Shown here: positions 30,231 through 45,586 of the stretch, one piece after another
Position numbering within the stretch: the first letter of the stretch is position 1
How the letters are laid out: each line of letters opens with the position of its first letter
DNA from: Slackia sp.
GTDB lineage: Bacteria > Actinomycetota > Coriobacteriia > Anaerosomatales > Anaerosomataceae
DNA: 64,000 nucleotides
Reading direction: 5' to 3'
NCBI GenBank assembly: GCA_020725885.1
Contig: DYEA01000016.1
Span: forward strand, 124,001-188,000
The notes under the pieces: generated by a model
Database searches by the model: none
Seen by the model: the letters and a program-made list of their open reading frames with translations, nothing else
What the model was told of the DNA's origin: nothing
Translations under genes and position numbers: made by a program

Positions 30231-30274
30231 CGCAAGGGCGACGTGCTGGGAAGCGATGGAGGAGCGTGGAAGCC

Positions 30275-31816
30275 ATGGCTGACAGGGTCTACATCTTCGA
30301 CACGACGCTGCGCGACGGCGAGCAGTCGCCGGGCGCGAGCATGAACACCGAAGAGAAGCTTGAGATCGCGCGCCAGCTGGTGCGGCTGGGCGTCGACGTC
30401 ATCGAGGCGGGGTTTCCCATCTCGAGCCCGGGCGACTTCGAGAGCGTGAAGCGCGTCGGCGAGGAGGTCGGGGACGCCGTCGTGGTGTGCGGGCTGTCGC
30501 GCGCGGTGCCGAAGGACATCGAGGTGGCGGCAGAAGCGCTCAAGAGCGCGAAGCGCCCGCGCATCCACACCGGCATCGGCGTGTCTGAAAGCCACCTGCG
30601 CGACAAGCTCCGTATCACGCGCGAGGAGGCGCTGGAGCGGGCAGTGGCCGCAGTGAAGCTCGCGCGGAAGTTCGTGGACGACGTCGAGTTCTACGCGGAG
30701 GACGCGGGACGTGCCGAGCCGACGTTCCTGTACCGCATGGTCGAGGCCGCCATACGCGCCGGCGCGACGGTCGTGAACATCCCGGACACGACCGGCTACG
30801 CGTACCCCGAGGTCTTCGGCGAGCTCATCCGCGGGCTGATGGAGCACGTCGACGGCATCGAGGACGTGACGGTGTCGGTGCACTGCCACAACGACCTCGG
30901 CATGGCCACCGCAAACGCGCTCGCCGGCGTGCGCGCGGGGGCTCGGCAGGTGGAGTGCACCATCAACGGCATCGGCGAGCGGGCGGGCAACACGGCGCTC
31001 GAAGAGGTCGTCATGGCGCTCAAGTCCCGCCGGGACCTCTTCGGCGTGGAGACCGGCATCAACACGCGCGAGATCATGCGCACCTCGCGCCTCGTCTCCA
31101 GCATCACCGGCATACGCGTGCAGCCGAACAAGGCGATCGTCGGCGCGAACGCCTTCGCGCACTCCTCAGGCATCCACCAGGACGGCGTGCTCAAAGAGCG
31201 GACGACGTATGAGATCATCGATCCTGCCGAGGTCGGAGCCGGCGTGTCCCGCATCGTGCTCACCGCGCGTTCCGGCCGCCATGCGCTCCGTCATCGGCTC
31301 GAGGAGCTCGGCTTCGCGCTCACCGACGACGAGTTCGAGCGCGTGTACGAGGCGTTCTTGGATGTGGCCGACAAGAAGAAGGAGGTCTACGACGAGGACC
31401 TCGAGGCCATTGTGGGCGAGAGCGAGCGCACGCTGCACGAGACGTACCACCTCCAGCAGGTGCACGTGAGCTGCGGCGAGCCGGGCATTCCGACGGCAAC
31501 CGTCGAGCTCGTCGCTGCAGACGGCCGGCACCTGATCGACTCCAGCCACGGCAACGGCCCGGTGGACGCGGTCTACAACGCCATCAACCGCATCGTGCAG
31601 GTGCCGAACGACCTCACGGAGTTCTCGGTGCAGTCGGTCACGCGCGGCATCGACGCCATCGGCGAGGTCACGATCCGGATCAGGGCCGAAGACGGCCAGG
31701 TGTTCACCGGCCGCGGCGCGCACCCGGACATCATCGTCGCGTCGGCCAAGGCGTACACGAACGCCCTCAACCGCTTGCTGTCAGCGCAGAAGAAGTCAGT
31801 CGAAGAGGAGCTGTGA
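30275..31816 (+). CDS. leuA: 2-isopropylmalate synthase
   Basis: 513 residues, long form with regulatory domain. It condenses 2-ketoisovalerate and acetyl-CoA as the committed leucine step. The N-terminus [17 protein letters not shown] and the metal motif [12 protein letters not shown] are diagnostic, as is [16 protein letters not shown]. The C-terminal LeuA dimer domain ([17 protein letters not shown] to [16 protein letters not shown]) binds leucine for feedback inhibition. ATG 30275 is preferred over GTG 30266, because GGAGGAG lies 10 bases before the ATG. Confidence 0.96.
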
Positions 31817-31834
31817 GGCTTCCGGATCGTGCCA

Positions 31835-32260
31835 TCACGGCAACCGTTCGAGGACGGCGAGGAAAGTCCTCGAGTCGACCACGCGCAGGCCGCCGGCGCG
31901 CTGCGGCATGTCGAGCAGGTGTGCGTCTCCGGTGACGACGGCGTGGGCAGCGGCGGCATTCGCCAAAGCGAGCACCACGTCGTCGTCCGGGTCAGGTGAG
32001 AGCCTGGGAACCTCGACAGGGTCCGGTTCGACGATCGCGACGCGGCGGTACCACGCCACGATCGCGACGGCATCCTCGTGCGCGATCCGCTTCGCGATGC
32101 GCGGCCGCTCGAACACGGACGCGAGCTCGTCGAGGAGCGTGGGACACGTGATCGCGTCGAAGCGGCCCTCGGCCAAGGCTCGCAAGAGCTGCGCGGGCGC
32201 TCCGTCACGCGAGAGCGCTGCAGCGACGATGACGTTCGTGTCCAGTATCGCGCGGATCAC
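31835..32260 (-). CDS. PIN-domain toxin (VapC-like, putative TA toxin family)
   Basis: 141 residues beginning at GTG 32260. The PIN acidic residues are visible: D7 in ILDTNVIVAA, E in LLDELASVF, D in PDPDDDVVLALA and D in VTGDAHLL. The fold is that of a Mg-dependent ribonuclease, commonly a translation-blocking toxin. Its start overlaps the antitoxin stop as GTGA. The pair is antisense to the leucine genes; the toxin ends 18 bases from the leuA stop. Confidence 0.88.
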   Translation of the reverse strand: MIRAILDTNVIVAAALSRDGAPAQLLRALAEGRFDAITCPTLLDELASVFERPRIAKRIAHEDAVAIVAWYRRVAIVEPDPVEVPRLSPDPDDDVVLALANAAAAHAVVTGDAHLLDMPQRAGGLRVVDSRTFLAVLERLP

Positions 32261-32487
32261 CGGCGTGCGCGGCGCGCGGCGCGCGTCTCTTCGACGGCGA
32301 GGTCGAGCGCTTCGGCCGGATCCATGGTCGCCGTCTCCCAGACTCTCTCGAGCGCGTTCAAGCCGAGGTAGTCGCGCAGCGCCTCCTCGACGACTTCGTA
32401 GTCGCGCTTGCCTGTGCGCGCGGCATACACCCGTGCCGCTCGCATGACCTCTTCGTCCACGTAGATGGTGGTGCGGGTCTTGCTCAT
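32257..32487 (-). CDS. Ribbon-helix-helix antitoxin
   Basis: 76 residues. The N-terminus [23 protein letters not shown] is the beta-strand plus helices of an RHH/Arc-type DNA-binding domain; the C-terminal part ([18 protein letters not shown]) would wrap the PIN toxin. There is no SD before the ATG at 32487, and the predicted transcript start falls on this ATG, so the mRNA appears leaderless. An inverted repeat over its promoter fits autoregulation by the toxin-antitoxin complex. Confidence 0.85.
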
Positions 32488-32489
32488 GG

Positions 32490-32513
32490 TTGCATCATAG
32501 CAGAATGGTGCAA
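32490..32513 (-). promoter_or_regulatory. Operator-like inverted repeat at the toxin-antitoxin promoter
   Basis: TTGCATCAT (32490-32498), six bases, ATGGTGCAA (32505-32513) is an inverted repeat with 8 of 9 positions matching. It covers the leftward -10 box (TATGAT, 32499-32494) and most of the spacer. Position and symmetry fit binding of an RHH antitoxin dimer pair that represses its own operon. Confidence 0.6.
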
Positions 32514-32521
32514 AAACGCAA
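32494..32521 (-). promoter_or_regulatory. Leftward promoter of the toxin-antitoxin pair
   Basis: Reading leftward: TTGCGT (32521-32516), 16 bases, TATGAT (32499-32494). Only six bases separate the -10 from the antitoxin ATG, so transcription should begin at or next to the start codon. Confidence 0.65.
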
Positions 32522-32609
32522 CCCCGCCCAGCAGAGCCTCGGGGATTTCGCGTACAATACGCAGACCGCGACATGCGAGCGCGAAACGCGTCTGGAGAAA
32601 GGATTTCCG

Positions 32610-33878
32610 ATGCCGCGTCCGATGACCATCACCGAGAAGATCCTGGCCGCTCATGCGGGGCTCGACGAGGTCGTCCCGGGGCAGCTGGTGAACTGCCGGC
32701 TCGACCTGGTGCTCGCCAATGACGTCACGGCTCCCATCGCCATCAAGGAGTTCCGCAAGGTTGGCGTCGAGCGCGTGTGGGACCCCGAGCGGATCGCGCT
32801 CGTGCCCGATCACTACACCCCGAACAAGGACATCAAGAGCGCCGAGCAGGCGAAGATGGTGCGCGAGTTCGCCCGCGAGCAGGACATCACGCACTACTAC
32901 GAGATCGGGTGCATGGGCGTCGAGCACGCGCTCTTGCCCGAGCAGGGCGTCGTGGTGCCGGGCGACGTCGTGATCGGTGCGGACAGCCACACCTGCACGT
33001 ACGGCGCGCTCGGTGCCTTCGCGACCGGCGTGGGTTCGACGGACGCCGCTGTCGGCATGGCCACCGGCGAGGCGTGGTTCAAGGTGCCGGCGTCGCTCAA
33101 GTTCGTCATCGAGGGCGAGCTCGGGTCCTGGGTGAGCGCGAAGGACGTCATCTTGCACATCATCGGCATGATCGGCGTGGACGGCGCGCTCTACCAGGCC
33201 ATGGAGTTCACCGGCAGCGCGATCTCCGCGCTCGACATGGACGGCCGCATGACCATCTGCAACATGGCGATCGAGGCCGGCGGCAAGAGCGGCATCATCG
33301 CGGTCGACGACGTGACGCGTGAGTACGTCCGCGGCCGCGCGGAGCGCGAGTGGGCGGAGTTCGAAAGCGACCCGGATGCCGAGTACGCCCGAGTCTTCGA
33401 GATCGATGCGGCGTCCATCGAGCCGACGGTCGCGTTCCCGCATCTGCCGAGCAACACGCGGCCGGTGCGTGAGGCGCGCGACGTGCGGGTCGACCAGGTC
33501 GTCATCGGCTCGTGCACGAACGGCCGGCTCGCGGACCTGCGGGTCGCGGCCGAGATCCTGCGCGGACGGCGCGTGCACCGCGACGTGCGGCTTATCGTCA
33601 TCCCGGCCACCCAGCAGATATACCGTGACGCGATGCACGAGGGGCTCATCGACGTGTTCCTCGACGCAGGGGCGGCCGTCTCGACGCCGACCTGCGGCCC
33701 GTGCCTCGGCGGGCACATGGGCATCCTCGCGGCGGGCGAGCGGGCGCTCGCGACCACGAACCGCAACTTCGTCGGCCGCATGGGCGACCCCACGAGCGAG
33801 GTCTACCTCGCGAGCCCGGCGGTTGCGGCCGCCACGGCGGTCGCGGGCCACATCGCACTGCCGGAGGACCTGGCGTAG
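32610..33878 (+). CDS. leuC: 3-isopropylmalate dehydratase large subunit
   Basis: 422 residues. It isomerises 2-isopropylmalate to 3-isopropylmalate with LeuD. Cluster ligands lie in [14 protein letters not shown] and [28 protein letters not shown] and [13 protein letters not shown] are typical. It is a clear paralogue of the protein at 16.1-17.3 kb, but the GPCLGGHMG motif and the leucine-gene context support the leucine role. Its small subunit is 7.5 kb away at 41.4 kb, across the cytochrome cassette. AGAAAGGA precedes ATG 32610. A TACAAT box at 32553-32558 may be its own -10. Confidence 0.9.
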
Positions 33879-33897
33879 CGGGAGGCGGGAGGTCGCG

Positions 33898-35691
33898 GTG
33901 GGGGAGCGGCGTCACGGACCCGGAGCCAGACCGCCAGGCAAGCCGAGGTCGGAGGCAGGACCGGGCTGGACGAGCGTCGTCCTGGTCGCGTGCGCGCTCA
34001 GCCCGCTCGTGCTGCAGCTGGTGGGGACCGATGCCGCAACGGCGGTGGACGCCGCGGCCGTCGGCGCGGGCGTCGCGGGCATCGCCGCCGCGTACGTGGT
34101 GGTGCGTGAGGGAGTTCCGATCGAGCGGCCGGTCCGGACGGTCGCGCTCCTCGGCGTTGCCTTCGTCGTGTGGTCGCTGGTCTGCGCTGCGTTCTCGGGA
34201 CGAGGGTGGTCGGCTTTCGTCGGAGAGCCGACGAACATGCTCGGGGCGCTCACGTTGGCGGCGCTTGCCGCGGTCGGCCTCGCAGCCGCGGCCCTCGGCG
34301 AGCGGCTCGTCCAAGCGCTTGGCCGCGCCGCCGTGGCGGTGGTCGCGCTGCAGGTGCTTTTCGCGGCTCCGCAGTTCGTTGCGTCGGGAACCGCTCGCGG
34401 GCTGCTCCCGAACTCCACCTACCTCGGCGAGCTCGTCGTGCTGCTGCTGCCGCTGCTGCTGGTCGAGCGAGACGGTGTGTGGAACGCGGCTGGGCGGGTC
34501 CTTGCTCCCGCGGCTGCGGCGGTCCTCGCGGCAGCGGGCAGCCGCGTGGCGGCGGCGGCCGCGGTGGTCTGGCTGGTCGTCGTATGGGCTCCCGCCGTAG
34601 CGCGGAAGCCGCAGGCCGCATGGCTGGTGAGGATCGGCGTGGTGGCTGTGGCCGTGGTGGGCGCGGCGGTGTTCTCCCGAGATGAGATCGCCTCGAGCAT
34701 AACCGCGGCCGCGCTCGGCGAGCGTCCGCAGATGTGGCAGGCGAGCGCGTGGGCAGTGGCGGCACGGCCTCTTCTCGGATACGGGCCAGACGGCTTCGTC
34801 CCCGGGGCGGCTTCCGTGCTGGATCTCGAACGCCTGCAGCGGGGCGCGCACCTCGCGCTCGGCCCGGGAAGCGCCGACCCCCACAGCGCGCTCGCGTGGG
34901 TCGCGGTCTCGTGCGGTCTGGTCGGCGCTGTGCTGTTCGCCGTGCTGGCCGCCGCGGTCGCGCGCGCGTGGCGGATCCCCGGGCGGCCGCCCGTGGCGGT
35001 GGCTGGCGCGTGGGGCGCCGCGATGGCCTTCGCGGTGTTCCTCACAGCTCCGGCGGCGCTGCAGGTGCTGCCTGCGTTCGCGCTGGTGCTGGGCGCTTCG
35101 CTCGTGCCCGGGGGCGCGCCCGCCCGCTCCCTGCAGCAGCCGCCCAGCCGGCCGGCATGGCTCCGGCCGGTGGCGTACGCGACGGCGCTCGCGTCGCTTG
35201 CGCTTGCGCTGAACGCGGGCACGCGGCTGCCGTTCGAAGTCGCAAGCGCCGACCGGTCGCCGTCGCTGGCGCCGGCAGCGCTTGCGGCAGCCCGAGCGTG
35301 GCGGGTGGATGCCCACCTGTGGTACCTCGCCTCGCTCCACAGCGGGTGGGCGGTCTGCGCCCAGGCTCCAGGAATCGAGCCGATGGCCGACCTCGCGGCC
35401 GCGCGCCGGGCGGCGTCGCTGGACCGGCGCGACCCCTGGTATGCGTTCGAGGCCGCCCGCACGCTGGCTTTCTACGGCGTGTCTGAGGCCGAGGTCGAGG
35501 CGGCGTTCGCGGAGGCGTTCCGTCGGTGGCCGGCGTTTCCGATCGCAAGGGCCGAACGGGCGTCGTGGTTGGCGCGGAGGGGCCGGACGGAGGAAGCGAA
35601 GCGGGAGATCTCGCTCGTCCGCCCCGTAGTCGCCAGCGACCCGCAGCTCGCCGAGGCGGTGCGCGCGGCGGAGGCCGCGCTCGCCCGCTGA
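33898..35691 (+). CDS. O-antigen ligase/polymerase-like membrane protein with C-terminal TPR region
   Basis: 597 residues from GTG 33898, five bases after GGAGG. About ten hydrophobic helices are followed by a soluble C-terminal third. The Wzy_C-like signature is RPLLGYGPDGFVPG, then PHSALAWVAVSCGLVG. The C-terminus (about 440-597) looks like TPR helices (AARAWRVDAHLWYLA, DPWYAFEAARTLAFYG). Such proteins join glycans to lipid A, other glycans or, as PglL-type enzymes, to proteins. It starts 19 bases after leuC and opens the cytochrome cassette, so I infer glycosylation of the exported cytochrome or of a surface polymer. The gene is exceptionally GC- and Ala-rich. Confidence 0.7.
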   Translation: MGERRHGPGARPPGKPRSEAGPGWTSVVLVACALSPLVLQLVGTDAATAVDAAAVGAGVAGIAAAYVVVREGVPIERPVRTVALLGVAFVVWSLVCAAFSGRGWSAFVGEPTNMLGALTLAALAAVGLAAAALGERLVQALGRAAVAVVALQVLFAAPQFVASGTARGLLPNSTYLGELVVLLLPLLLVERDGVWNAAGRVLAPAAAAVLAAAGSRVAAAAAVVWLVVVWAPAVARKPQAAWLVRIGVVAVAVVGAAVFSRDEIASSITAAALGERPQMWQASAWAVAARPLLGYGPDGFVPGAASVLDLERLQRGAHLALGPGSADPHSALAWVAVSCGLVGAVLFAVLAAAVARAWRIPGRPPVAVAGAWGAAMAFAVFLTAPAALQVLPAFALVLGASLVPGGAPARSLQQPPSRPAWLRPVAYATALASLALALNAGTRLPFEVASADRSPSLAPAALAAARAWRVDAHLWYLASLHSGWAVCAQAPGIEPMADLAAARRAASLDRRDPWYAFEAARTLAFYGVSEAEVEAAFAEAFRRWPAFPIARAERASWLARRGRTEEAKREISLVRPVVASDPQLAEAVRAAEAALAR

Positions 35692-35753
35692 CCGCCGTCT
35701 GCGCGGCACGGGCTTTGCTACAATACCGCACGCTGTCTCGTGGAAGGGTTCAC

Positions 35754-36491
35754 ATGTCGAGAGTCGTCTCGAGGGATCTTGCCCGCCTGCAACGCGGGAA
35801 TCGCATGCTCGTCATCGCCTTGCTGGGCACAGTCGTCGTGATGCTCGCCGCCATCCTGTGGGCTGTCGCCACGGTCCTTCCGCAACGAGACACGCCCAGG
35901 ACCTTCGTGGAGCGTCAGCTCGCCATGCTCGAGCGTGTCGTCAAGGAGAAGCCCAAGTCTGAAGAGGCATGGGCGGACTACATACTCGCCCTCGTCGCTG
36001 CGAAGCAGTACTCGAAGGCCCAAGCGGTGATCGCGCAGGCGGAGAAGGCCGTCGGCAAGGACGTCGTCGACATCCTCTACGTCCGGGCCAGGCTCGCGCA
36101 CGCACGCGGCGATCGCGGCGAGGCCGAGCAGCTCGTCAAGAAGGCGATCGACTCAGGGCTTGCGTTCCGTCAGAAGGAGCTTGCGCGTCTGGCCGAGCAG
36201 GCGACGTTTCCTGATCCACACGTGATCAAAGGCAAGGTCCTCGCGTCGGCGTACTACTTCCAGGCGCAGCTGCTGGCGGAGAAGAAGCAGTGGCAGGAGG
36301 CCGCCGAAGCGCTCACCAAGTCGCTGGCAGAAGAGCCCGCGTCGGCAGACGCGCTCGTGTTCCGGGGCAACGTCTACCTGGAGCTTTCCGAGACGGCCTC
36401 CGCGACGGCCGACTTCCGGCAGGCATTGAAGTACATCCCCGGCTTCCAGCCGGCTCTTGACGGACTCAAGAAGGCGGGTGCAGCCAAGTGA
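35754..36491 (+). CDS. Membrane-anchored TPR protein
   Basis: 245 residues. A single N-terminal helix (MLVIALLGTVVVMLAAILWAVATVLP, quoted in part: LVIALLGTVVVMLAAILW) is followed by tetratricopeptide-type helices from about residue 60 to the end, for example AWADYILALVAAKQYSKAQ and ADALVFRGNVYLELSET. The domain should face the outside. It resembles the TPR tail of cytochrome c-biogenesis factors and assembly scaffolds. It overlaps the NHL gene by four bases, so the two products probably act together, perhaps assembling or exporting the cytochrome encoded next. A TACAAT box (35719-35724) lies upstream, without a good -35. Confidence 0.75.
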   Translation: MSRVVSRDLARLQRGNRMLVIALLGTVVVMLAAILWAVATVLPQRDTPRTFVERQLAMLERVVKEKPKSEEAWADYILALVAAKQYSKAQAVIAQAEKAVGKDVVDILYVRARLAHARGDRGEAEQLVKKAIDSGLAFRQKELARLAEQATFPDPHVIKGKVLASAYYFQAQLLAEKKQWQEAAEALTKSLAEEPASADALVFRGNVYLELSETASATADFRQALKYIPGFQPALDGLKKAGAAK

Positions 36492-37753
36492 GCGATGATC
36501 GCGACATCGTGGCCGCCTCCGGTTCGCCGGAGCGCGACGAGCGAGAAGACGAGCGTGCGTACGAGCGGGCGCGCCGGACGCGCCTGATCCTCGCTGGCGG
36601 GCTCGTGGTGCTGTTCTTCCTCCTGATCGCCGTCCTGGCGTTCGTGGTACGCATCGCGACTCCCGTGGGCCGTCCTTCCACTGAGGAGATTCCGGAAGGG
36701 CTTACCTGGGTCCGCTCGATCTACGGGTGGGGGCCTGGAGAAGACCAGCAGTTCGGCGGCCCCACCGACGTGGGTGTCGGTCCTGACGGGACGATCTGGG
36801 TGGCCGATTCGCAGCGCTTCCAGATCGTCGGGTTCACGCCGGCCGGGACGTTGAAGCAGATCCTGACTCTGGGCCCCGGAGCGATGTTCCCGCAGTCGTT
36901 CGACGTGGCGGAGAACGGCGAGATCTACGTGTGCGATTTCGCGCACGATCGCATCGTGGTGCTGACCCCCGACAACCGGCTCGTCCGCGAGTGGAAGGTG
37001 CAGTTGCCGATGGAAGTCGCCGTCCGCGGCGACCGTGTGGCAGTGGGGTCGCGCTTCGGCGTGGCCGTGTACGACCGCCAGGGCAACGTGATCTCGTACT
37101 GGGGCTCCGGAGGCTCGAAGGAAGACCAGTTCGACGTGGTGCGGGGCGCAGCCATCGGACCCGACGGCACGTTGTACTTCTCTGACACGCAGAACCATCG
37201 TCTGAAGGCCTACGACGAGCGCGGGACGTTGAAGTGGGTGTACCCGAGTCCTGCGGAGGCCGCCCGCTTCGCCAAGGCGAGCGTCGAGGAGACGGCGACG
37301 AAGAAGCCCTTCCAGATACCCACCGGCATGACCTTCGACGCTGCCGGGCGGTTGCTCGTGACCGACCCCTTCGAGTTCGCGATCATGAGCATCGACACGC
37401 GCAACGGGCACGTGCTTCAGCGCTGGGGCGAGTTCGGCGAGAAGGACGGGTATTTCGCGTACCCCACCTCGATCGACTACGATCCCGTGCGCGACTGGTA
37501 CGTCGTCGCAGACACGGCGAACCGGCGCGTGCAAATCGTGCGGATCGAAGGCAGCGGCGGCGGGCCGGGCGCCGCATTGCGGCGCGCGTGGACGGGTCCT
37601 GCGTGGGCGTGCTACGGGCCGCTCGTTTTGCTGCTGCTTGCTGTGATCATCGCCGTGTCTGGTCGGCGACGTCGCGGAGAAGCCGCAGACGAATGGGCAA
37701 GCAAGGGCGACGAACGGGAATCCGCAGACCTTTCGTCGCCCACTCAGGCATGA
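36488..37753 (+). CDS. NHL-repeat beta-propeller protein with two membrane anchors
   Basis: 421 residues from GTG 36488, overlapping the TPR gene stop as GTGA. A charged N-terminal tail precedes a helix (LILAGGLVVLFFLLIAVLAFVV). Then comes a six-bladed NHL propeller with repeats such as GPTDVGVGPDGTIWVADSQ, AIGPDGTLYFSDTQNHRLK and WYVVADTANRRVQIVRI. A second helix near the C-terminus (YGPLVLLLLAVIIAVSG) is followed by a basic/acidic tail. The propeller would lie outside the membrane. NHL and TPR genes recur beside extracellular cytochrome filament genes, so a role in cytochrome assembly or secretion is a reasonable inference. Confidence 0.82.
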   Translation: MSDDRDIVAASGSPERDEREDERAYERARRTRLILAGGLVVLFFLLIAVLAFVVRIATPVGRPSTEEIPEGLTWVRSIYGWGPGEDQQFGGPTDVGVGPDGTIWVADSQRFQIVGFTPAGTLKQILTLGPGAMFPQSFDVAENGEIYVCDFAHDRIVVLTPDNRLVREWKVQLPMEVAVRGDRVAVGSRFGVAVYDRQGNVISYWGSGGSKEDQFDVVRGAAIGPDGTLYFSDTQNHRLKAYDERGTLKWVYPSPAEAARFAKASVEETATKKPFQIPTGMTFDAAGRLLVTDPFEFAIMSIDTRNGHVLQRWGEFGEKDGYFAYPTSIDYDPVRDWYVVADTANRRVQIVRIEGSGGGPGAALRRAWTGPAWACYGPLVLLLLAVIIAVSGRRRRGEAADEWASKGDERESADLSSPTQA

Positions 37754-37757
37754 AGGC

Positions 37758-37786
37758 TTGTGCAATACTGAACTTGAGCCGATAAT
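37758..37786 (+). promoter_or_regulatory. Promoter of the hexahaem cytochrome gene
   Basis: TTGTGC (37758-37763), 17-base spacer, GATAAT (37781-37786), starting just after the NHL gene stop. A start near 37793 would give a 5' leader of about 70-100 bases. This allows the exported cytochrome to be made at much higher level than the upstream assembly genes. Confidence 0.7.
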
Positions 37787-37860
37787 GGTCGCGAGCATGG
37801 ATGCTTCGCTTCGATAAGGAGCGTGCAGGATTCTTAAGCGAAAGGAGGTGCTTACTGTCT

Positions 37861-39003
37861 ATGCGAAACAACGACATGGAGAGGGGAACGCACATGATCC
37901 GTAAGTCAACCATCATCGTCGCGGCTGTGGCTGTGATGGTGCTCGCGTTCGCTGCGTCCGCGTACGCTATCGGCCCGGTGTACATTACATGGAACGCCGG
38001 TGGCAACAACTCGGGCACGGGCGGGCCGCACCAGAACTACCAGCTCACGACGGAGAAGTGCGCCGTGTGCCACTCGGTGCACGCGGCTGCACCTTCGAAC
38101 GCTGCGGCCGGGCAGTTCGGCCCGGATTCGACAGGCGCTGCAGAGACGCAGCTCTTGCTGCGCTCGTCGGTGGCTGACGCCTGCACCTACTGCCACATCA
38201 CCTCGAACGTTGCGGGTCTGCAGATCTACAACGCTGTGGCATCGAACTACCAGACCGATGACCAGTACGGCCACAATGGCAGCACGTCGGCTGAGTGCGC
38301 CGACTGCCACGCGGTGCATGGCGCCGACACGTTCAAGGGCTACATCGCCGGCAAGATCCTGAAGGCCAACAGCAACCTGGTGAGCAACGTGAGCGGCGGC
38401 GTGCAGACGGAAGCCGCTGCCACGCTGAACACGCTGGTCTCTACCGGAACGGTCTTCACGGCGCCTGCCGCTGCAGACGGCGACCTGCAGGTCACCGCGT
38501 TCTGCACCCGGTGCCACAAGACGTTCTCGGACGCCTCCGAGACGACCATCACGGCTTCGGGCTACTTCTCGAACTGGAACGGCACGACGACGTTCGGTGC
38601 CCGCGACTATAAGAACCACCCGTTGAAGGCCGCGGAAGCCACATTCGCGGCATCGGGCGCCAACTACACCGGCCGTGTTGCGTGGGCCGATGCGCAGACC
38701 TGCCGTTCGTGCCACGCGGCTGGCGACACCCGCGTGTCGACCTCGTACGGCGGTTCGGGCGGCGTTGTCGCGTGGTCGTTCCCGCACTGGACGAACGGCA
38801 ACGCGTCGTTCCTGGTGTCCGGCTGGGGCGTCAACGACGCGAACATCGGCATCCTGGACGACCACCAGGCGAGCACCGGCAAGCCTGCTGGCTCGCACAG
38901 CGTGGCTGACGGGGCGGAGGACGGCGTGTGCTTGCGCTGCCACACCAACGGCTCGACGGGCGCGCCGAACGACGCGACCGCTGGCGTGAACGTCACGTTC
39001 TAG
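37861..39003 (+). CDS. Exported hexahaem c-type cytochrome (candidate filament-forming or surface cytochrome)
   Basis: 380 residues from ATG 37861 (AAAGGAGGTG upstream), or 369 from ATG 37894 (GAGGGGAA upstream), which gives a compact signal peptide (IIVAAVAVMVLAFAASAYA). Counting from 37894, six haem motifs occur: CAVCH 56-60, CTYCH 97-101, CADCH 135-139, CTRCH 204-208, CRSCH 270-274 and CLRCH 346-350. Eight other His residues (46, 63, 127, 142, 242, 298, 324, 335) are enough for bis-His ligation of all six. Two motifs are extended as CxxCHxVH, as in cytochrome filaments of the OmcS/OmcE kind. The rest is Gly/Ala/Ser/Thr-rich with no membrane anchor, so the protein should be released or assembled outside. 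Filament formation is inferred, not shown. Confidence 0.9.
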   Translation: MRNNDMERGTHMIRKSTIIVAAVAVMVLAFAASAYAIGPVYITWNAGGNNSGTGGPHQNYQLTTEKCAVCHSVHAAAPSNAAAGQFGPDSTGAAETQLLLRSSVADACTYCHITSNVAGLQIYNAVASNYQTDDQYGHNGSTSAECADCHAVHGADTFKGYIAGKILKANSNLVSNVSGGVQTEAAATLNTLVSTGTVFTAPAAADGDLQVTAFCTRCHKTFSDASETTITASGYFSNWNGTTTFGARDYKNHPLKAAEATFAASGANYTGRVAWADAQTCRSCHAAGDTRVSTSYGGSGGVVAWSFPHWTNGNASFLVSGWGVNDANIGILDDHQASTGKPAGSHSVADGAEDGVCLRCHTNGSTGAPNDATAGVNVTF

Positions 39004-39051
39004 GCACAGAGAGCACGGTCCTTCGCGCTCAGTGTGCTGAAGGGACCACGA

Positions 39052-39081
39052 GGGCGAGGCCTGGTCCTCCGGGCCTCGCCC
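39052..39081 (+). terminator. Terminator after the hexahaem cytochrome gene
   Basis: GGGCGAGGCC (39052-39061) pairs with GGCCTCGCCC (39072-39081) around a ten-base loop, followed by CCTTTCCTGT. A weaker hairpin (GGTCCTTC around 39018 with GAAGGGACC around 39039) lies just before it. Together they should separate the strongly expressed cytochrome from the two large cytochrome genes. Confidence 0.65.
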
Positions 39082-39112
39082 CCTTTCCTGTATCGTGCGC
39101 GACACGCGGAGC

Positions 39113-40132
39113 ATGATCATCGGCATGACGACTCCGGAACACGGCCCAGACCCCCTCGCTGCGCGTCCGCGGTGTCCGAATCGCGGGGCGCTGGCGGTCG
39201 TCGCGATCGCCGCCGTGACCGTCGTGCTCGTGCTCGGGGGCGGGTCGACGCGTGCAGCCTGCGCCGTGTGCCATCGTGGACTTGGGGGTGCCGCGGGCGC
39301 GGCTCCCGGCCACGCGCGCCTCTCGTGCTACGCGTGCCACCTCGGACGCGGGGCTGCCGACTGGCCGTCGTTCAAGGCGCGCGAGCTCTTCGTGATGTAT
39401 CCGAAGGCCGTCGCGGGCGCCGGCCTGACGTACGGGCCTGCTCCGGTCGAGCGAGCGGCGTGCCTGCGCTGCCACCGGCGCGTGGCCGATTCTGTCGTCG
39501 AAGCGAACGGGATCCGCGTCGACCACCGCGCGTGTGCCGCCGACCGGCCGTGCGGCGATTGCCACGGCGCGTCCGCTCACGGCTCCGCGCTGCGGTGGAG
39601 CAAGCAGCCGGTGATGGAGGAGTGCGTGGCCTGTCACCGGGCAGCCGGCTCGCCCACGGAGTGCGACTCGTGCCACGTCGAGCACACCGAGCGGGAACGT
39701 CTCGCGAAAGGCCCCTGGCAGATCACGCACGGTGCGAACTGGTCCAAGACGCACGGCATGGGCACCTTGCAGTGGTGCGCGACGTGCCATCCGTCCGGCT
39801 ATTGCGTGCGGTGCCACGGCGTCGGGCTCCCGCACCCGGCCGACTTCGGGCGCACGCACGGCGCGCTCGCGAAGGCCCCGAAGGCGGCGTGCCGTTCGTG
39901 CCACGACGAGGCGCTGTGCGACGGCTGCCACGGCGTGCCCATGCCGCACCCCGAGGGCTTCCTCGTCCGCCATTCGAGCGAGGCGTCGTCGTCCGCTGAC
40001 CCCAAGTGCCTCTCGTGCCACATCCAGAAGGACTGCCAAGCGTGCCACGAGATGCACGTCCACCCGGGCTCGACCGAAGGCACGGCCCGGCTGCCGCGTC
40101 CCGAGGACGTAGGGCTGGAGGGCACGCCGTGA
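39113..40132 (+). CDS. Dodecahaem c-type cytochrome, membrane-anchored
   Basis: About 339 residues with 12 CxxCH motifs in order: CAVCH, CYACH, CLRCH, CGDCH, CVACH, CDSCH, CATCH, CVRCH, CRSCH, CDGCH, CLSCH and CQACH. An N-terminal helix (ALAVVAIAAVTVVLVLGGG) ends four residues before the first haem region, acting as a signal or anchor. Two motifs are extended as CHG-x2-[ML]PHP-x2-F, also seen in the next protein. It would carry electrons between membrane and cell wall. The start is uncertain: GTG 39095, ATG 39113 and ATG 39125 are all in frame and none has a strong SD. Its stop overlaps the next GTG. Confidence 0.85.
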   Translation: MIIGMTTPEHGPDPLAARPRCPNRGALAVVAIAAVTVVLVLGGGSTRAACAVCHRGLGGAAGAAPGHARLSCYACHLGRGAADWPSFKARELFVMYPKAVAGAGLTYGPAPVERAACLRCHRRVADSVVEANGIRVDHRACAADRPCGDCHGASAHGSALRWSKQPVMEECVACHRAAGSPTECDSCHVEHTERERLAKGPWQITHGANWSKTHGMGTLQWCATCHPSGYCVRCHGVGLPHPADFGRTHGALAKAPKAACRSCHDEALCDGCHGVPMPHPEGFLVRHSSEASSSADPKCLSCHIQKDCQACHEMHVHPGSTEGTARLPRPEDVGLEGTP

Positions 40133-41289
40133 GCGCTCTTTGGCGTGACATCCAACGGCTGGCCGGGCTTATCGGCGAGGTCATCGCGGCCCCGACTGCG
40201 AATCTGAGCGCCGCCTTGCTGCTGCTCGCAGCCCTCGCGCTGCTGCTGCTGATCGTCGTGACCGTGATCGCGCTGCTCGTCCTGCCGTCCCCGAAGCCGC
40301 CGCGGAAACGTGCGCGAGCAGCAGGCGTGGAGCTGCAGAGGGACGGGAAGACGGTAGCGAGGCGTCGCGCACGGGCGCCGCTGATAGCGGTGCTCGTGAC
40401 GGTTGCGCTTGCGCTCGGGTACGCGGGGACGGGCACCGACCAGTTCTGCGTCTCGTGCCATGCGGACCTTGCGATGGCGAGCGCGGCCGGCTCGTCTGGA
40501 TCTACCGAGACGCCAGGTCCGGCGAACCTCCACGGCGAGGTCCGGTGCGTCCGTTGCCATGAGGAAACGCTGCCGATCGGGTTGGTGTCCAACGTCGCCG
40601 CACGGATCCGGTTCGGTGTCAGGTACGCCATGGGAGCGGATCCGAACGACGGCGTTGCGTCTGTGCCCACGCGCCGGTGCGTCGGCTGCCACCGGACGAT
40701 CCTGGACAGGACGACCGAGTCCAGCGAGACCGGTGTAGCGATGTCGCACGCTGAGCCGGTGCGTTCTGGCGTGCCGTGCCTCGAGTGCCATAAGAACGCC
40801 GGGCACAGGAGCGGATCGCAGGGCGTGTCGATGAATACCTGCTTGCGATGCCACGACGGATCGCAGGCGTCTGCGGAATGCTCCGCGTGCCACACGAAGG
40901 ACACCGCGTTCGCGGTCCGCACCCGGCGTACTTTCTCGTTCGTCCACCTGCCGCCCGTCACGGACTGCGGCGGCTGCCACGACCAGCGCTCCTGCGACGC
41001 GTGCCACGGGCTCCGGATGCCGCATCCGAAGGATTTCCTCGATGGCGAGCACGCTCGGCAAGCGGGTTTCGAGAAGAAGGAGCTGTGCTGGCGCTGCCAT
41101 ACCTATCTCGAATGTGGGAAGTGCCACGCCGTCAAACCGCCGGGACAAGGCGCGTGGGGCCATGGCACCGGCGATTGGTGGCGCAAGGAGCACGGCCGCT
41201 CGACGCCTAAAGGCGCGCAGACCGGATGCGGCTGCCATGGCCGCAGCCCGTACGCGCGTGCCGGCAACTACTGCAAGGCGTGCCATTAA
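40129..41289 (+). CDS. Undecahaem c-type cytochrome with two N-terminal membrane helices
   Basis: 386 residues from GTG 40129, overlapping the previous stop as GTGA. Two hydrophobic segments (LLLLAALALLLLIVVTVIAL and APLIAVLVTVALALGYAG) precede 11 CxxCH motifs: CVSCH, CVRCH, CVGCH, CLECH, CLRCH, CSACH, CGGCH, CDACH, CWRCH, CGKCH and CKACH. One more motif, TGCGCHGR, is CxCH and may or may not bind haem. The final CKACH is the exact C-terminus. The layout, with membrane helices then haems outside, resembles quinol-oxidising NapC/CymA-like cytochromes in principle, although the haem number is far higher. It is a likely electron entry point from menaquinone. Confidence 0.85.
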   Translation: MSALWRDIQRLAGLIGEVIAAPTANLSAALLLLAALALLLLIVVTVIALLVLPSPKPPRKRARAAGVELQRDGKTVARRRARAPLIAVLVTVALALGYAGTGTDQFCVSCHADLAMASAAGSSGSTETPGPANLHGEVRCVRCHEETLPIGLVSNVAARIRFGVRYAMGADPNDGVASVPTRRCVGCHRTILDRTTESSETGVAMSHAEPVRSGVPCLECHKNAGHRSGSQGVSMNTCLRCHDGSQASAECSACHTKDTAFAVRTRRTFSFVHLPPVTDCGGCHDQRSCDACHGLRMPHPKDFLDGEHARQAGFEKKELCWRCHTYLECGKCHAVKPPGQGAWGHGTGDWWRKEHGRSTPKGAQTGCGCHGRSPYARAGNYCKACH

Positions 41290-41361
41290 GGCAGGCGGCG
41301 TTCTCGCGAATCGCCTCGTGCGTGGTACAATCCCGCCACTTCGGAGGCGAGGAGGCGCGCG

Positions 41362-41859
41362 ATGAAGTTCGAAGGCACCGCACACCGCTACGGCCGCGAC
41401 ATCGACACGGACGTGATCATCCCGGCCCGGTATCTCAACACGAGCGATCCGGACGAGCTGGCGGCCCACTGCCTCGAGGACCTGGATCCGGCGTTCGTGC
41501 AGAAGGTCCAGCCCGGCGACATCCTCGTCGCTGAGGAGAACTTCGGGTGCGGCTCCTCGCGCGAGCACGCGCCGATCGCCATCAAGCACGCGGGGGTCGC
41601 TGCCGTCGTCGCCAAGAGCTTCGCGCGCATCTTCTACCGCAACGCCATCAACACCGGGCTTCCGATCTTCGAAGCGCCGGAAGCCGTCGACGGCATCCGT
41701 GCCGGCGACCGCGTGGCGATCGACGCGGATGAAGGCGTCATCACGAACCTCACGACGGGCGAGTCGTGGCAGGCGCAGCCGTTCCCGCCGTTCATCCGCG
41801 AGATCATCGAGCGCGGCGGGCTCGTCGCGTACGCGCGGGAGAAGGTGGCGGGCCGGTGA
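41362..41859 (+). CDS. leuD: 3-isopropylmalate dehydratase small subunit
   Basis: 165 residues, partner of the LeuC at 32.6 kb. Motifs: [21 protein letters not shown] (substrate loop YLNTSD), [12 protein letters not shown] and [27 protein letters not shown] box (41326-41331) lies 30 bases before the ATG and probably gives the gene its own promoter after the cytochrome cassette. It overlaps leuB as GTGA. Confidence 0.93.
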
Positions 41860-42974
41860 GCGCGCCGCAGGCCGCCTGCCGCATCTGCCTGCTGCCGGGC
41901 GACGGCATCGGCCCGGAGATCACCGCTGAGGCCGTCAAGGTGCTCGAGGCCATCGGGAGCCGCTTCGGCGTGCGCTTCGAGTTCACAGAGGCGCTGCTCG
42001 GCGGAGCGGCCATCGACGCCACCGGCACCGCGCTGCCCGACGAGACGCTCGCAGCTGCGAAAGCTGCAGACGCCGTGCTGCTCGCCGCCATCGGCGGGCC
42101 CAAGTGGGACACCACGGACCCCGACAAGCCACGGCCGGAGCAGGGGCTGCTCGGCATCCGCAAGGCGTTGGGGCTGTACGCGAACCTCAGGCCCGTGCGC
42201 ATCTTCGAGCCGCTCAAGGGCGCGAGCACGCTCAAGCCCGAGGCGCTCGAAGGCGTCGACATGCTCATCGTCCGCGAGTTGACCGGCGGGCTGTACTTCG
42301 GCCCGCGGGCGCGCGAGCGTGACGTCGAGGGCGCGGCTGCAGGCGGCGCGCGCGGGATGCGCGCCTACGACACCTGCGTGTACTCGGAGCTCGAGATCGA
42401 GCGCATCGCTCGGGTGGCGTTCGAGGCCGCGCGCACGCGGCGCGGGCGCGTGCACTCGGTCGACAAAGCCAACGTCCTCGAGTCGAGCCGCCTGTGGCGC
42501 GAGGTCGTCCACCGCGTGCACGCGGCGGAGTACCCGGACGTCGAGCTCCTCGACCAGCTGGTCGACAACACTGCGATGCAGCTCATCCGCTACCCGGCGC
42601 AGTTCGACGTGGTGCTCACCGAGAACATGTTCGGCGACATCCTCTCGGACGAGGCGTCGATGCTCACCGGCTCGCTCGGGATGCTCGCGAGCGCGTCGCT
42701 GGGCGACGGCACCGCGCTCTATGAGCCGAGCCACGGCAGCGCGCCCGACATCGCCGGCCAAGGGGTGGCGAACCCGCTCGCCATGCTGCTCTCGGTCGAG
42801 CTGATGCTCCGTCACTCGTTCGGCATGCACGAGGCGGCAGACGCGCTCGCTGCGGCCATCGACGGCGTGCTCGCGGACGGCTGGCGCACCCGCGACATCG
42901 CGGACGAGACCACGCTTCCGCAGCGCACGGTCGGCACTGCCGCGATGGGCGACCTGGTAGCTGAGCGGATCTGA
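41856..42974 (+). CDS. leuB: 3-isopropylmalate dehydrogenase
   Basis: 372 residues from GTG 41856. It oxidises and decarboxylates 3-isopropylmalate to 2-ketoisocaproate. The substrate signature is [16 protein letters not shown], and the coenzyme loop [18 protein letters not shown] carries the Asp-Ile of NAD-dependent enzymes. This contrasts with the paralogous dehydrogenase at 17.9 kb (S-x-N-x3-R and Lys-Tyr). It is translationally coupled to leuD. Confidence 0.97.
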
Positions 42975-43011
42975 GGCGCAAGACCGGCCGGTCTCACGGC
43001 GCTCTCAAGTG

Positions 43012-43040
43012 TTCGCGCACGGCCTGATACGCGCTACTAT
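43012..43040 (+). promoter_or_regulatory. Candidate promoter before ilvE
   Basis: TTCGCG (43012-43017), 17 bases, TACTAT (43035-43040). The -10 is good and the -35 weak. A 14-base perfect palindrome, AGACCGGCCGGTCT (42981-42994), lies 17 bases upstream of the -35 and could be an operator or the end of the leuB transcript. Confidence 0.4.
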
Positions 43041-43085
43041 TACCATTCACACTGCTGTATGCCAGCGAGTCGGAAGGGGAGCGCG

Positions 43086-44003
43086 ATGGCCAGCCTGCCG
43101 AGAGTCGATTACATCTGGATGGACGGCGAGCTCGTCGAGTGGGAGAAGGCGACCGTCCACGTCCTTACGCACGCGCTGCACTACGGCTCCGGCGTCTTCG
43201 AGGGCATCCGCTGCTACGCCACCGCCGACGGTCCTGCGATCTTCCGGCTGCGCGACCACATGGAGCGGTTCGACCGCTCTGCGAAGATGTTGATGATGGA
43301 TCTCGGCATGAGCGTCGACGAGATCTGCGAGGCCGTCAAAGAGACAGTGCGGGCGAACAAGCTCCCTGAGTGCTATATCCGTCCGATCGCCTTCCGCGGC
43401 TACGGCGTGATGGGTCTCGACCCGATCCCTGCTCCGGTGCAGATCGCCATCGCGGCCTGGCCGTGGGAGACCTACATGGGCGAGGAAGCGCTCACGCGCG
43501 GCGTCGACGTCGGCATCTCGTCGTGGCGTCAGCGCGGCATCAACTCGCTGCCGCCGGCGATCAAGGCCACCGGCAACTACCTCAACTCCTCGCTCGCGCG
43601 CGTCGAGGCGAACCGCCACGGCTACAACGAGGCCATCCTCCTGAACGAGGAGGGCAAAGTCTGCGAGGGCACCGGCGAGAACATCTTCGTCGTGCGCGAC
43701 GGCGTGATCTCCACGCCGCCGGTCTCCGACGGCATCCTCGAGGGCATCACGCGCGACTCGATCATGGTGATCGCTGATGACCTTGGCTACCCGGTCATCG
43801 AGGAGTCGCTCGTCCGCACCGACCTGTACGCCGCCGACGAGGTCTTCATGACCGGGACGGCGGCCGAGGTCGTGCCGGTGCGCTCGGTCGACGGACGCGT
43901 GATCGGCGACGCCGGCCCGATCACGCTCGAGCTGCAGAAGACGTTCTTCCGCGTGGTGCGGGGCGAGGAGCCCGACTACGAGGAGTGGCTGGAGCGGGTG
44001 TAG
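43086..44003 (+). CDS. ilvE: Branched-chain amino acid aminotransferase
   Basis: 305 residues, fold-type IV PLP enzyme. It makes Val, Leu and Ile from the keto acids using glutamate. Motifs: HALHYGSGVFEGIRCY (with the substrate-pocket Tyr), IKATGNYLNSSLA (Lys forming the PLP Schiff base), EAILLNEEGKVCEGTGENIF and VFMTGTAAEVVPV. ATG 43086 follows GGAAGGGGA; an upstream ATG at 43059 has none. The cimA start overlaps its last base. Confidence 0.96.
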   Translation: MASLPRVDYIWMDGELVEWEKATVHVLTHALHYGSGVFEGIRCYATADGPAIFRLRDHMERFDRSAKMLMMDLGMSVDEICEAVKETVRANKLPECYIRPIAFRGYGVMGLDPIPAPVQIAIAAWPWETYMGEEALTRGVDVGISSWRQRGINSLPPAIKATGNYLNSSLARVEANRHGYNEAILLNEEGKVCEGTGENIFVVRDGVISTPPVSDGILEGITRDSIMVIADDLGYPVIEESLVRTDLYAADEVFMTGTAAEVVPVRSVDGRVIGDAGPITLELQKTFFRVVRGEEPDYEEWLERV

Positions 44004-45586
44004 TGGTCGTCCTCTACGACACGACGCTTCGTGACGGGACGCAGCGGGAGGGCATGTCCCTCTCGGTGGAGGACAAGCTGCGCGTCGCGCAGCGCCTCGA
44101 CGACCTCGGCATCCGCTACATCGAAGGCGGCTTCCCGGGCTCCAACCCCAAAGACATGGAGTTCTTCGAGCGCGCACGGCATCTCGCGCTCGCGAACGCG
44201 ACGATCGTGGCGTTCGGGGCGACATGCCGCAAGGACCTCGCGCCAGAACGGGACGCCGGCCTGCAGGCGCTGCTCGACACTGGGTGCGAGGCGCTCTGCA
44301 TCTTCGGCAAGGCGTGGGACCTCCACGTGACCGAGACGCTCAACGCCTCGCTGGAGGAGAACCTGCGCATGGTGCGCGAGAGCGTCGCGTACCTCAAGTC
44401 GCACGGCAAGACGGTGTTCTTCGACGCGGAGCACTTCTTCGACGGGTACCTGCACAATGCCGGCTACGCGATCGAGGTCTGCCGCGCGGCGGCCGAGGCC
44501 GGGGCCGACGCAGTGGTGCTGTGCGACACGAACGGCGGCACGCTGCCGCAGGCGGTGCACCGCATCGTGCTCACGATGGCGAACGAGATCGACGTGCCGC
44601 TTGGCATCCACGCGCACAACGACGGCGGCTGTGCGGTGGCCAACTCGCTGCTTGCGGTCGATGCGGGCTGCACCCACGTGCAGGGCACGATGAACGGCTA
44701 CGGCGAGCGCGCCGGCAACGCCGACCTCACGGCCATCATCCCCGCGCTCAAGCTCAAGATGGGGCTCGAGTGCGTGACCGACGACGAATTGCGCCTGCTC
44801 ACGGAGGTCTCGCACTTCGTCGCGGAGACCGCCAACATCTCGCCCAACCCACACCAGCCCTACGTCGGCGCGAGCGCATTCGCGCACAAAGGCGGCGTGC
44901 ACGCGAGCGCTGCGGCGCGTCTGCCGGGGGCGTACGAGCACGTCGACCCGGCGCTCGTCGGCAACATGGCCCGCGTCGTGGTGAGCGAGCTTGCGGGCCG
45001 GGCGTCGCTCGTGCTCAAGGCGCACGAGATGGGCATCACGCTGTCGGTCGACGACCCCGAGACGAGCCGCATGCTCGACGAGATCAAGCGCCTCGAGCAC
45101 CAGGGCTACACCTTCGAGGCCGCGGATGCGTCGCTCGAGATCATGCTGCGCAAGTCGTTCGGCACCTACGAGCCGTTCTTCCGGCTCGAGTCGTTCCGCG
45201 TGATCATGGAGAAGCGGGAGGACGGCAAGGTGATGACCGAGGCCACCATCAAGGTGCACGTGTCCGGCCACCGGTTCATCGCGACGGCAGAAGGAAACGG
45301 CCCCGTGAACGCGCTCGACAAGGCGCTGAGGATCGCGATCGGCCGGTTCTATCCGGCGCTGGACGCCATCGAGCTCACGGACTTCAAGGTGCGCGTGCTC
45401 GACGAGAAGAAGGGAACGGCTGCCGTCACCCGCGTGCTCATCGAGTCGAGCGACGGCGAGAAGAGCTGGGGGACGGTCGGCGTCTCGGAGAACATCATCG
45501 AGGCGTCGTGGGAGGCGCTCGTCGATTCGGTCGAGTACGGCCTGATGCACCCGAGGCAGGAAACCGGGCAGCCTGAGCGAATGTGA
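44003..45586 (+). CDS. cimA: (R)-citramalate synthase
   Basis: 527 residues from GTG 44003. It condenses pyruvate and acetyl-CoA to citramalate, giving a threonine-independent route to 2-ketobutyrate and isoleucine. It begins VLYDTTLRDGTQREGMSLS and has GGFPGSNPKD, DAEHFFDGY, GIHAHNDGGCAVANSL and GTMNGYGERAGNADL, features of the CimA branch rather than LeuA. The C-terminal domain should bind isoleucine. LeuCD and LeuB can process citramalate in such pathways, which fits its place at the end of this cluster. Confidence 0.93.
   Translation: MVVLYDTTLRDGTQREGMSLSVEDKLRVAQRLDDLGIRYIEGGFPGSNPKDMEFFERARHLALANATIVAFGATCRKDLAPERDAGLQALLDTGCEALCIFGKAWDLHVTETLNASLEENLRMVRESVAYLKSHGKTVFFDAEHFFDGYLHNAGYAIEVCRAAAEAGADAVVLCDTNGGTLPQAVHRIVLTMANEIDVPLGIHAHNDGGCAVANSLLAVDAGCTHVQGTMNGYGERAGNADLTAIIPALKLKMGLECVTDDELRLLTEVSHFVAETANISPNPHQPYVGASAFAHKGGVHASAAARLPGAYEHVDPALVGNMARVVVSELAGRASLVLKAHEMGITLSVDDPETSRMLDEIKRLEHQGYTFEAADASLEIMLRKSFGTYEPFFRLESFRVIMEKREDGKVMTEATIKVHVSGHRFIATAEGNGPVNALDKALRIAIGRFYPALDAIELTDFKVRVLDEKKGTAAVTRVLIESSDGEKSWGTVGVSENIIEASWEALVDSVEYGLMHPRQETGQPERM

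Follow-up and report, generated by a model that had tools for sequence, protein, structure and literature searches.

A six-gene cytochrome cassette, probably for extracellular electron transfer, and its ligase partner in an anaerobic actinobacterium

How do electrons pass across the thick wall of single-membrane bacteria, and how are exported cytochromes held on their surface? Both questions are raised by a locus in the 64-kb stretch of DNA analysed here (the window; contig DYEA01000016.1 of a Slackia sp. assembly, order Anaerosomatales, positions 124,001 to 188,000), whose host genome measures 1.83 Mb. Six co-directional genes on the plus strand (33901–41289, window numbering) encode, in order, a Wzy_C protein with a TPR-like region (G1), a TPR protein (G2), an NHL propeller (G3), an exported hexahaem cytochrome (G4) and two membrane cytochromes with 12 and 11 CxxCH motifs (G5 and G6). 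Open reading frame (ORF) coordinates and Pfam bear out the order proposed in a preliminary description, made from the letters alone. We consider it likely that this cassette serves extracellular electron transfer in a monoderm anaerobe; it probably wires the membrane of certain actinobacteria living without oxygen to something outside the cell, be it a mineral, an electrode or a partner cell.

Cytochromes of the cassette

Counting all ORFs of the window, only G4, G5 and G6 carry at least two CxxCH motifs; chance occurrence in these three is ruled out, as the other ORFs do not have even two. The preliminary description placed G5 and G6 on the quinol side of the membrane, and this is supported by profile searches, in which NrfH (2j7a, chain C) is the best solved structure for both (E 3.9e-10 over 131 residues for G5, E 4.2e-10 for G6). 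The match takes in the transmembrane (TM) segment and haems 1 to 4, the anchor-then-four-haem arrangement of the NrfH/NapC family. NrfH itself has 4 haems rather than the 12 predicted here, and the NCBIfam whole-protein NrfH model gives the two proteins 18–20 bits against a cut-off of 134; G5 and G6 are much longer relatives of NrfH, not NrfH. Pfam multihaem families match G5 below the gathering score. The quinol site of NrfH carries an aspartate. In G5 this residue seems to be replaced by an invariant methionine, Met101 (precursor numbering), which aligns close to the aspartate position, and together with 12 CxxCH motifs and 11 invariant free histidines this is the pattern expected if haem 1 resembles that of NrfH and the other eleven are bis-His.

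The motif counts of 12 and 11 given earlier are confirmed, with the addition that the twelfth haem site of G6 reads CXCH (Cys-Gly-Cys-His). Among 28 homologues this column, otherwise invariant, reads CXCH in 16 and CXXCH in the other 12, and at least two changes between the forms are forced on the tree. Assembly error is ruled out, the 16 proteins coming from separate assemblies. All homologues retain the two cysteines, the histidine and a candidate distal histidine, which makes loss of the twelfth haem unlikely; the site is possibly a non-canonical haem c attachment motif. The open-licence literature searched gave nothing relevant on CXCH as a haem motif.

G4 is exported, as had been claimed, with six CxxCH motifs, a signal peptide and no anchor. 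The six motif columns are invariant in both alignments, save for a few divergent rows that have one motif of another form or count; haem 1 reads CxxCHxVH, and six free histidines are conserved (precursor residues 57, 74, 138, 153, 253 and 309). This predicted complement is compatible with six bis-His haems and would fit ligation within or between subunits alike. A strong promoter and a terminator of its own had also been attributed to the gene. A fair candidate promoter, found by eye, has both hexamers kept in three congeners, among which the leader is nearly identical just before the start codon; a consensus promoter scan upstream of the gene returned no site, and the adjective 'strong' is unsupported. 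Four relatives share the hairpin that follows the gene, with changes at paired bases (z −4.2 to −6.3); as it has no good T-tract, it may act as a partial terminator or instead as an mRNA-stabilizing 3′ element. Promoter, leader and hairpin agree with a higher level of G4 than of G5 and G6. In Geobacter, omcS is associated with cyclic-dinucleotide riboswitches (PMC10599522); a riboswitch before the hexahaem gene was rejected, Rfam giving no credible match.

Coriobacteriaceae bacterium EMTCatB1 dominated a thermophilic methane-producing cathode, and under closed circuit five of its multihaem genes, 1d0125 among them, ranked within the top 10% of transcripts (PMC7943316). Counting genes on the plus strand with a simple gene caller places the V-ATPase A and B genes at 36 and 37, within a cluster published as 1d0031-37 (PMC7943316), and the hexahaem gene at 125. 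The first 158 kb hold at least two CxxCH motifs only in the three cassette genes, so 1d0125 is one of the three cytochromes of the cassette, and most likely the hexahaem gene. Global instead of per-strand numbering was discarded, as overall gene 125 falls where no multihaem gene exists.

Co-occurrence in related genomes had been proposed as a check on the cassette, and its order proves to be conserved through the taxonomic order and to recur beyond it. Of 61 genomes, the one analysed here among them, 52 have hexahaem-related matches. The 12-haem G5 family is present in 53 of 58 genomes within the order; sampled across the phylum, it occurs in 31 of 397 genomes, among them members of other classes. 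Most loci of the order keep TPR–NHL–hexahaem–G5–G6; in some G5–G6 is inverted and in a few the first three genes stand alone, so that the cassette consists of two sub-modules. In other classes, G5–G6 again lies near TPR–NHL–multihaem sets. Maturation genes, which were to be sought elsewhere in the genome, are represented by three ResB matches above cut-off.

TPR, NHL and ligase genes beside the cytochromes

The start of G3 overlaps the end of G2 by 4 nt, and both membrane anchors earlier ascribed to the propeller are found. Alignment places both anchors in the hexahaem-type members, the C-terminal one being missing in 14-haem-type members. Loci were also picked by NHL alone in 25 genomes, so that they were not chosen by cytochrome: a TPR gene lies directly upstream in 43 of 46, and a multihaem gene of 3–14 CxxCH directly downstream in 38 of 46. 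Of the three NHL genes that lack TPR, two are at contig ends, as are two of those lacking a cytochrome.

G1 resembles the WaaL/PglL O-antigen ligase superfamily in its ~10 TM segments and in a Wzy_C domain with the conserved arginine and histidine of a Wzy_C ligase or oligosaccharyltransferase; Arg275 and His328 (G1 numbering) are invariant in 15 of 15 Wzy_C proteins. This predicted ligase and its group differ from WaaL/PglL in the TPR C-terminus of most relatives (in G1 itself recognized by resemblance to these, Pfam TPR models falling below threshold) and in their specific placement beside multihaem genes. Direct sequence homologues of G1 are confined to the genus and one relative, as would suit a peripheral gene, a view overturned by Pfam searches of gaps and wider loci and by a genome-wide Wzy_C count. 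A list drawn from 16 genomes of the order contains 39 Wzy_C ORFs with a length of 570 aa or more, mostly TPR-fused. Of these, 29 have an NHL or G5 match no further than 12 kb away, mostly at 1.4–5 kb, against 0 of 31 shorter ones; the list holds stronger matches only (with the window's own G1 outside it) and the 570-aa limit was chosen after viewing it. The Fisher p of 1.6e-11 is overstated and a guide only, as genes of one cluster and genomes of one order are not independent. Despite these caveats the contrast is not subtle. Pfam also finds Wzy_C-TPR proteins beside cytochrome loci in other classes of the phylum, where one locus (L191) has the exact order Wzy_C–TPR–NHL–multihaem.

The Wzy_C ligase is a true, specific partner of the cytochrome cassette, and what the preliminary description listed as an oddity is its most interesting part. 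Serine and threonine make up 19.5% of mature G4, against 10–12% in G5 and G6, and mature G4 has eight N-x-S/T sites to one each in the membrane cytochromes; together with the genomic context of the ligase, this makes it reasonable, though no more than that, to suppose that the exported cytochrome is glycosylated. No earlier report of a ligase–cytochrome link was found in the open-licence literature searched.

Electron transfer and its alternatives

An NrfH-type membrane multihaem, an exported multihaem and ResB maturation proteins, three features of an extracellular electron-transfer system, are present, and with the conserved gene order they support well, at the level of sequence, the earlier proposal of such a system in a Gram-positive-type actinobacterium; the pathway first sketched is plausible. 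In the scheme that we favour, G5 and G6 would trade electrons with the menaquinone pool and conduct them through the wall region over 23–24 haems, and exported G4 would relay them to or from a Fe(III) mineral, an electrode or another cell. G2 and G3 would act as a dedicated pair outside the membrane, there to take in, fold or place the exported cytochrome encoded by the next gene, and G1 would most likely join a glycan to that cytochrome or to the surface polymer holding it. The direction of electron flow, quinol oxidation, the assembly role and glycosylation are steps that we infer.

That the system is unusual for a Gram-positive, as first suggested, is overstated. The clusters of Dethiobacter alkaliphilus, likewise a Gram-positive-type anaerobe, combine secreted multihaems, a CymA-like quinol-side multihaem and NHL with TPR proteins, which its authors propose to aid assembly or positioning; the accessible text of that study describes neither a ligase, nor the fixed Wzy_C–TPR–NHL–multihaem order, nor a 12/11-haem pair, and concerns another lineage (PMC10376724). 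Closer still are two putative quinol-oxidizing multihaems and a third multihaem reported in both Parvivirga (MCL4078710-12) and Anaerosoma (MCK8115470-72), again from a partial text, in which TPR, NHL, ligase, leucine-operon site and CXCH go unmentioned (PMC9686372); these are probably the three cytochromes of the cassette. Parvivirga, which probably belongs to the same genus as the source of the window, grows on H2 and ferrihydrite according to the same text (PMC9686372); like the expression of 1d0125 in EMTCatB1, this is circumstantial evidence of electron exchange with an outside partner.

Several points weigh against extracellular electron transfer. The functions of the cassette proteins are predicted from genes rather than from biochemistry. 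Anaerosoma tenue, which probably holds the corresponding three-cytochrome cluster, does not use Fe(III) for growth according to the discussion in the same paper (PMC9686372), so the cassette would not be enough for respiring iron, and it may have some other partner. Foldseek found no cytochrome with the low-confidence AlphaFold model of G5 (pLDDT 66), and likewise for G4, where the model has a mean pLDDT of 58 and the best match an E of 2.3, with no cytochrome among the matches shown; we give these models no weight. Free histidines largely conserved in G6 number seven for twelve haem sites; several of its haems would need other or inter-protein ligands. The shared ancestry of clusters and genomes behind the ligase statistics has been noted above.

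The fate of G4 admits more than one reading. It may act, without polymerizing, as a soluble or wall-bound electron shuttle or as a terminal reductase comparable to OcwA or MtrC, a reading to which we give an even chance: the Pfam MtrC/MtrF-like domain II/IV scores above cut-off, and the best solved structure for its profile is 6i5b (E 8.6e-7), titled 'Uncharacterized protein' in its record, which we take to be OcwA of Thermincola potens, a cell-surface multihaem of a Gram-positive. The similarity is weak and partial, covering ~100 CxxCH-rich residues that may be matched by motif alone, and 6i5b is longer (526 residues against 344). Polymerization into an extracellular filament like that of Geobacter OmcS (6ef8), with TPR and NHL proteins as assembly platform and the ligase glycosylating it, is distinctly improbable. 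G4 shares with OmcS export, six haems, a similar length and CxxCHxxH at the first haem; it has no anchor and a bis-His stoichiometry, and is probably expressed above G5 and G6, 1d0125 alone of the three being in the published top-10% list, and Parvivirga hydrogeniphila forms appendages with ferrihydrite and not with Fe(III)-citrate. Nothing can be aligned beyond CxxCH, however: with these motifs fixed, OmcS fragments (261 of ~407 residues) in a collinear profile alignment fare no better than shuffled ones (z 0.4–1.5), which leaves the cytochrome-filament idea of the preliminary description without support from similarity, and a profile search gave three short, non-collinear matches. The low-confidence G4 model has no fold match, all three congeners encode several type IV pilus or secretion-type ATPases, which could explain appendages in another way, and the pili-like appendages of another Gram-positive iron reducer are non-conductive (PMC7829351).

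Whichever form G4 takes, the cassette might take up electrons, with cathodes, Fe(II) or syntrophic partners as donors, instead of reducing acceptors. We hold this to be unlikely, if less so than a filament: 1d0125 is highly expressed on the methane-producing cathode, for which the authors deduce direct electron uptake by this bacterium, but the genes named as higher under closed circuit are 1d0898 and 1c0642, not 1d0125 (PMC7943316), and relatives respire Fe(III). Least probable of all is that G1 is an ordinary surface-polysaccharide enzyme nearby by chance, with G2 and G3 unrelated surface proteins. Some hexahaem cassettes of the order do lack a Wzy_C gene beside the TPR gene; the clustering of long and not short Wzy_C ORFs with cassette genes, and the recurrence of the whole order in another class, speak against it.

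Genomic setting and meaning

The cassette splits a leucine operon (30266–45586; NCBIfam), a setting absent from the preliminary description, with leuA and leuC before it and leuD, leuB, ilvE and cimA after it (Table 1), and it lies beside leu genes in many relatives of the order too. The gap between leuA and leuC holds, on the minus strand (31835–32574), a short pair whose translations, read by eye, resemble a PIN-domain toxin and a small DNA-binding antitoxin. In one relative, the interval from leuC to the TPR gene encodes a 571-aa protein that contains a spermidine-synthase domain (L042:4682-6394); in Geobacter, the spermidine synthase gene GSU2502 is near omcT/omcS by locus number (PMC10599522, table).

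Table 1. Features of the cassette and its flanks, in window coordinates
Feature	Position	Strand	Basis or remark
leuA	30266-31816	+	upstream of leuC; NCBIfam TIGR00973
leuC, 3-isopropylmalate dehydratase large subunit	32490..33878	+	NCBIfam TIGR02083
G1, Wzy_C (O-antigen-ligase superfamily) membrane protein	33901..35691	+	~596 aa, ~10 TM; Pfam Wzy_C E 4.9e-10
G2, membrane-anchored extracytoplasmic TPR protein, 245 aa	35754..36491	+	Pfam TPR_19 E 2.9e-12
G3, NHL beta-propeller, N- and C-terminal TM anchors, 421 aa	36488..37753	+	Pfam NHL E 1.2e-19
Candidate promoter TTGTGC-17-GATAAT and leader of hexahaem gene	37723..37860	+	by eye; DNA alignment
G4, exported hexahaem cytochrome, 380 aa	37861..39003	+	signal peptide to ~Ala36; Pfam Paired_CXXCH / MtrC-MtrF domain
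GC hairpin, 13 bp, after hexahaem gene	39052..39081	+	conserved with paired-base changes
G5, membrane cytochrome, 12 CxxCH, N-terminal TM	39095..40132	+	NrfH-like four-haem start; true start may be ATG 39113 or 39128
G6, membrane cytochrome, 11 CxxCH and one CxCH	40129..41289	+	two N-terminal hydrophobic segments; Pfam Cytochrome_C7 / Cytochrom_c3_2 / Cytochrom_NNT
CXCH, candidate 12th haem site of G6	41227..41238	+	alignment of homologues
leuD	41362..41859	+	TIGR02084 2 bits below cut-off; TIGR02087 above cut-off
leuB, ilvE, cimA	after leuD, up to 45586	+	TIGR00169, TIGR01122, TIGR00977

A second, larger cytochrome region lies in the same genome (C17:178000-201000; L129 and L130). It begins with Wzy_C/TPR–TPR–NHL–14-haem–33-haem genes, the last a frame of 1392 aa, and continues with Wzy_C–12-haem–G6-like–TPR–NHL and a 4-haem hexahaem-like protein. 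Giant multihaem ORFs of relatives lie near the same modules, with 45 CxxCH at L050:12329-17239, 43 at L098:394-7722 and 35 at L037:2-4774.

We put forward, tentatively and as a possibility rather than an expectation, that Wzy_C/TPR ligase, TPR protein, NHL protein and exported multihaem act across Actinomycetota as a dedicated line that glycosylates and assembles surface cytochromes, present several times per genome, serving cytochromes of 3 to 14 haems and associated with a membrane partner that has a haem on CXCH. The ligase partnership, this candidate phylum-wide four-gene module, the CXCH variant and the link to 1d0125 are new with respect to the literature searched. The locus offers a compact, conserved set of parts for electron passage through a monoderm wall, in a genus that would include a cultured iron reducer, Parvivirga, and with a relative that dominates a biocathode. 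The column of G6 that switches between CXCH and CXXCH is a direct test of how flexible the haem-attachment rule is, and if the ligase modifies cytochromes, surface glycans would be tied to electron transfer through a specific enzyme.

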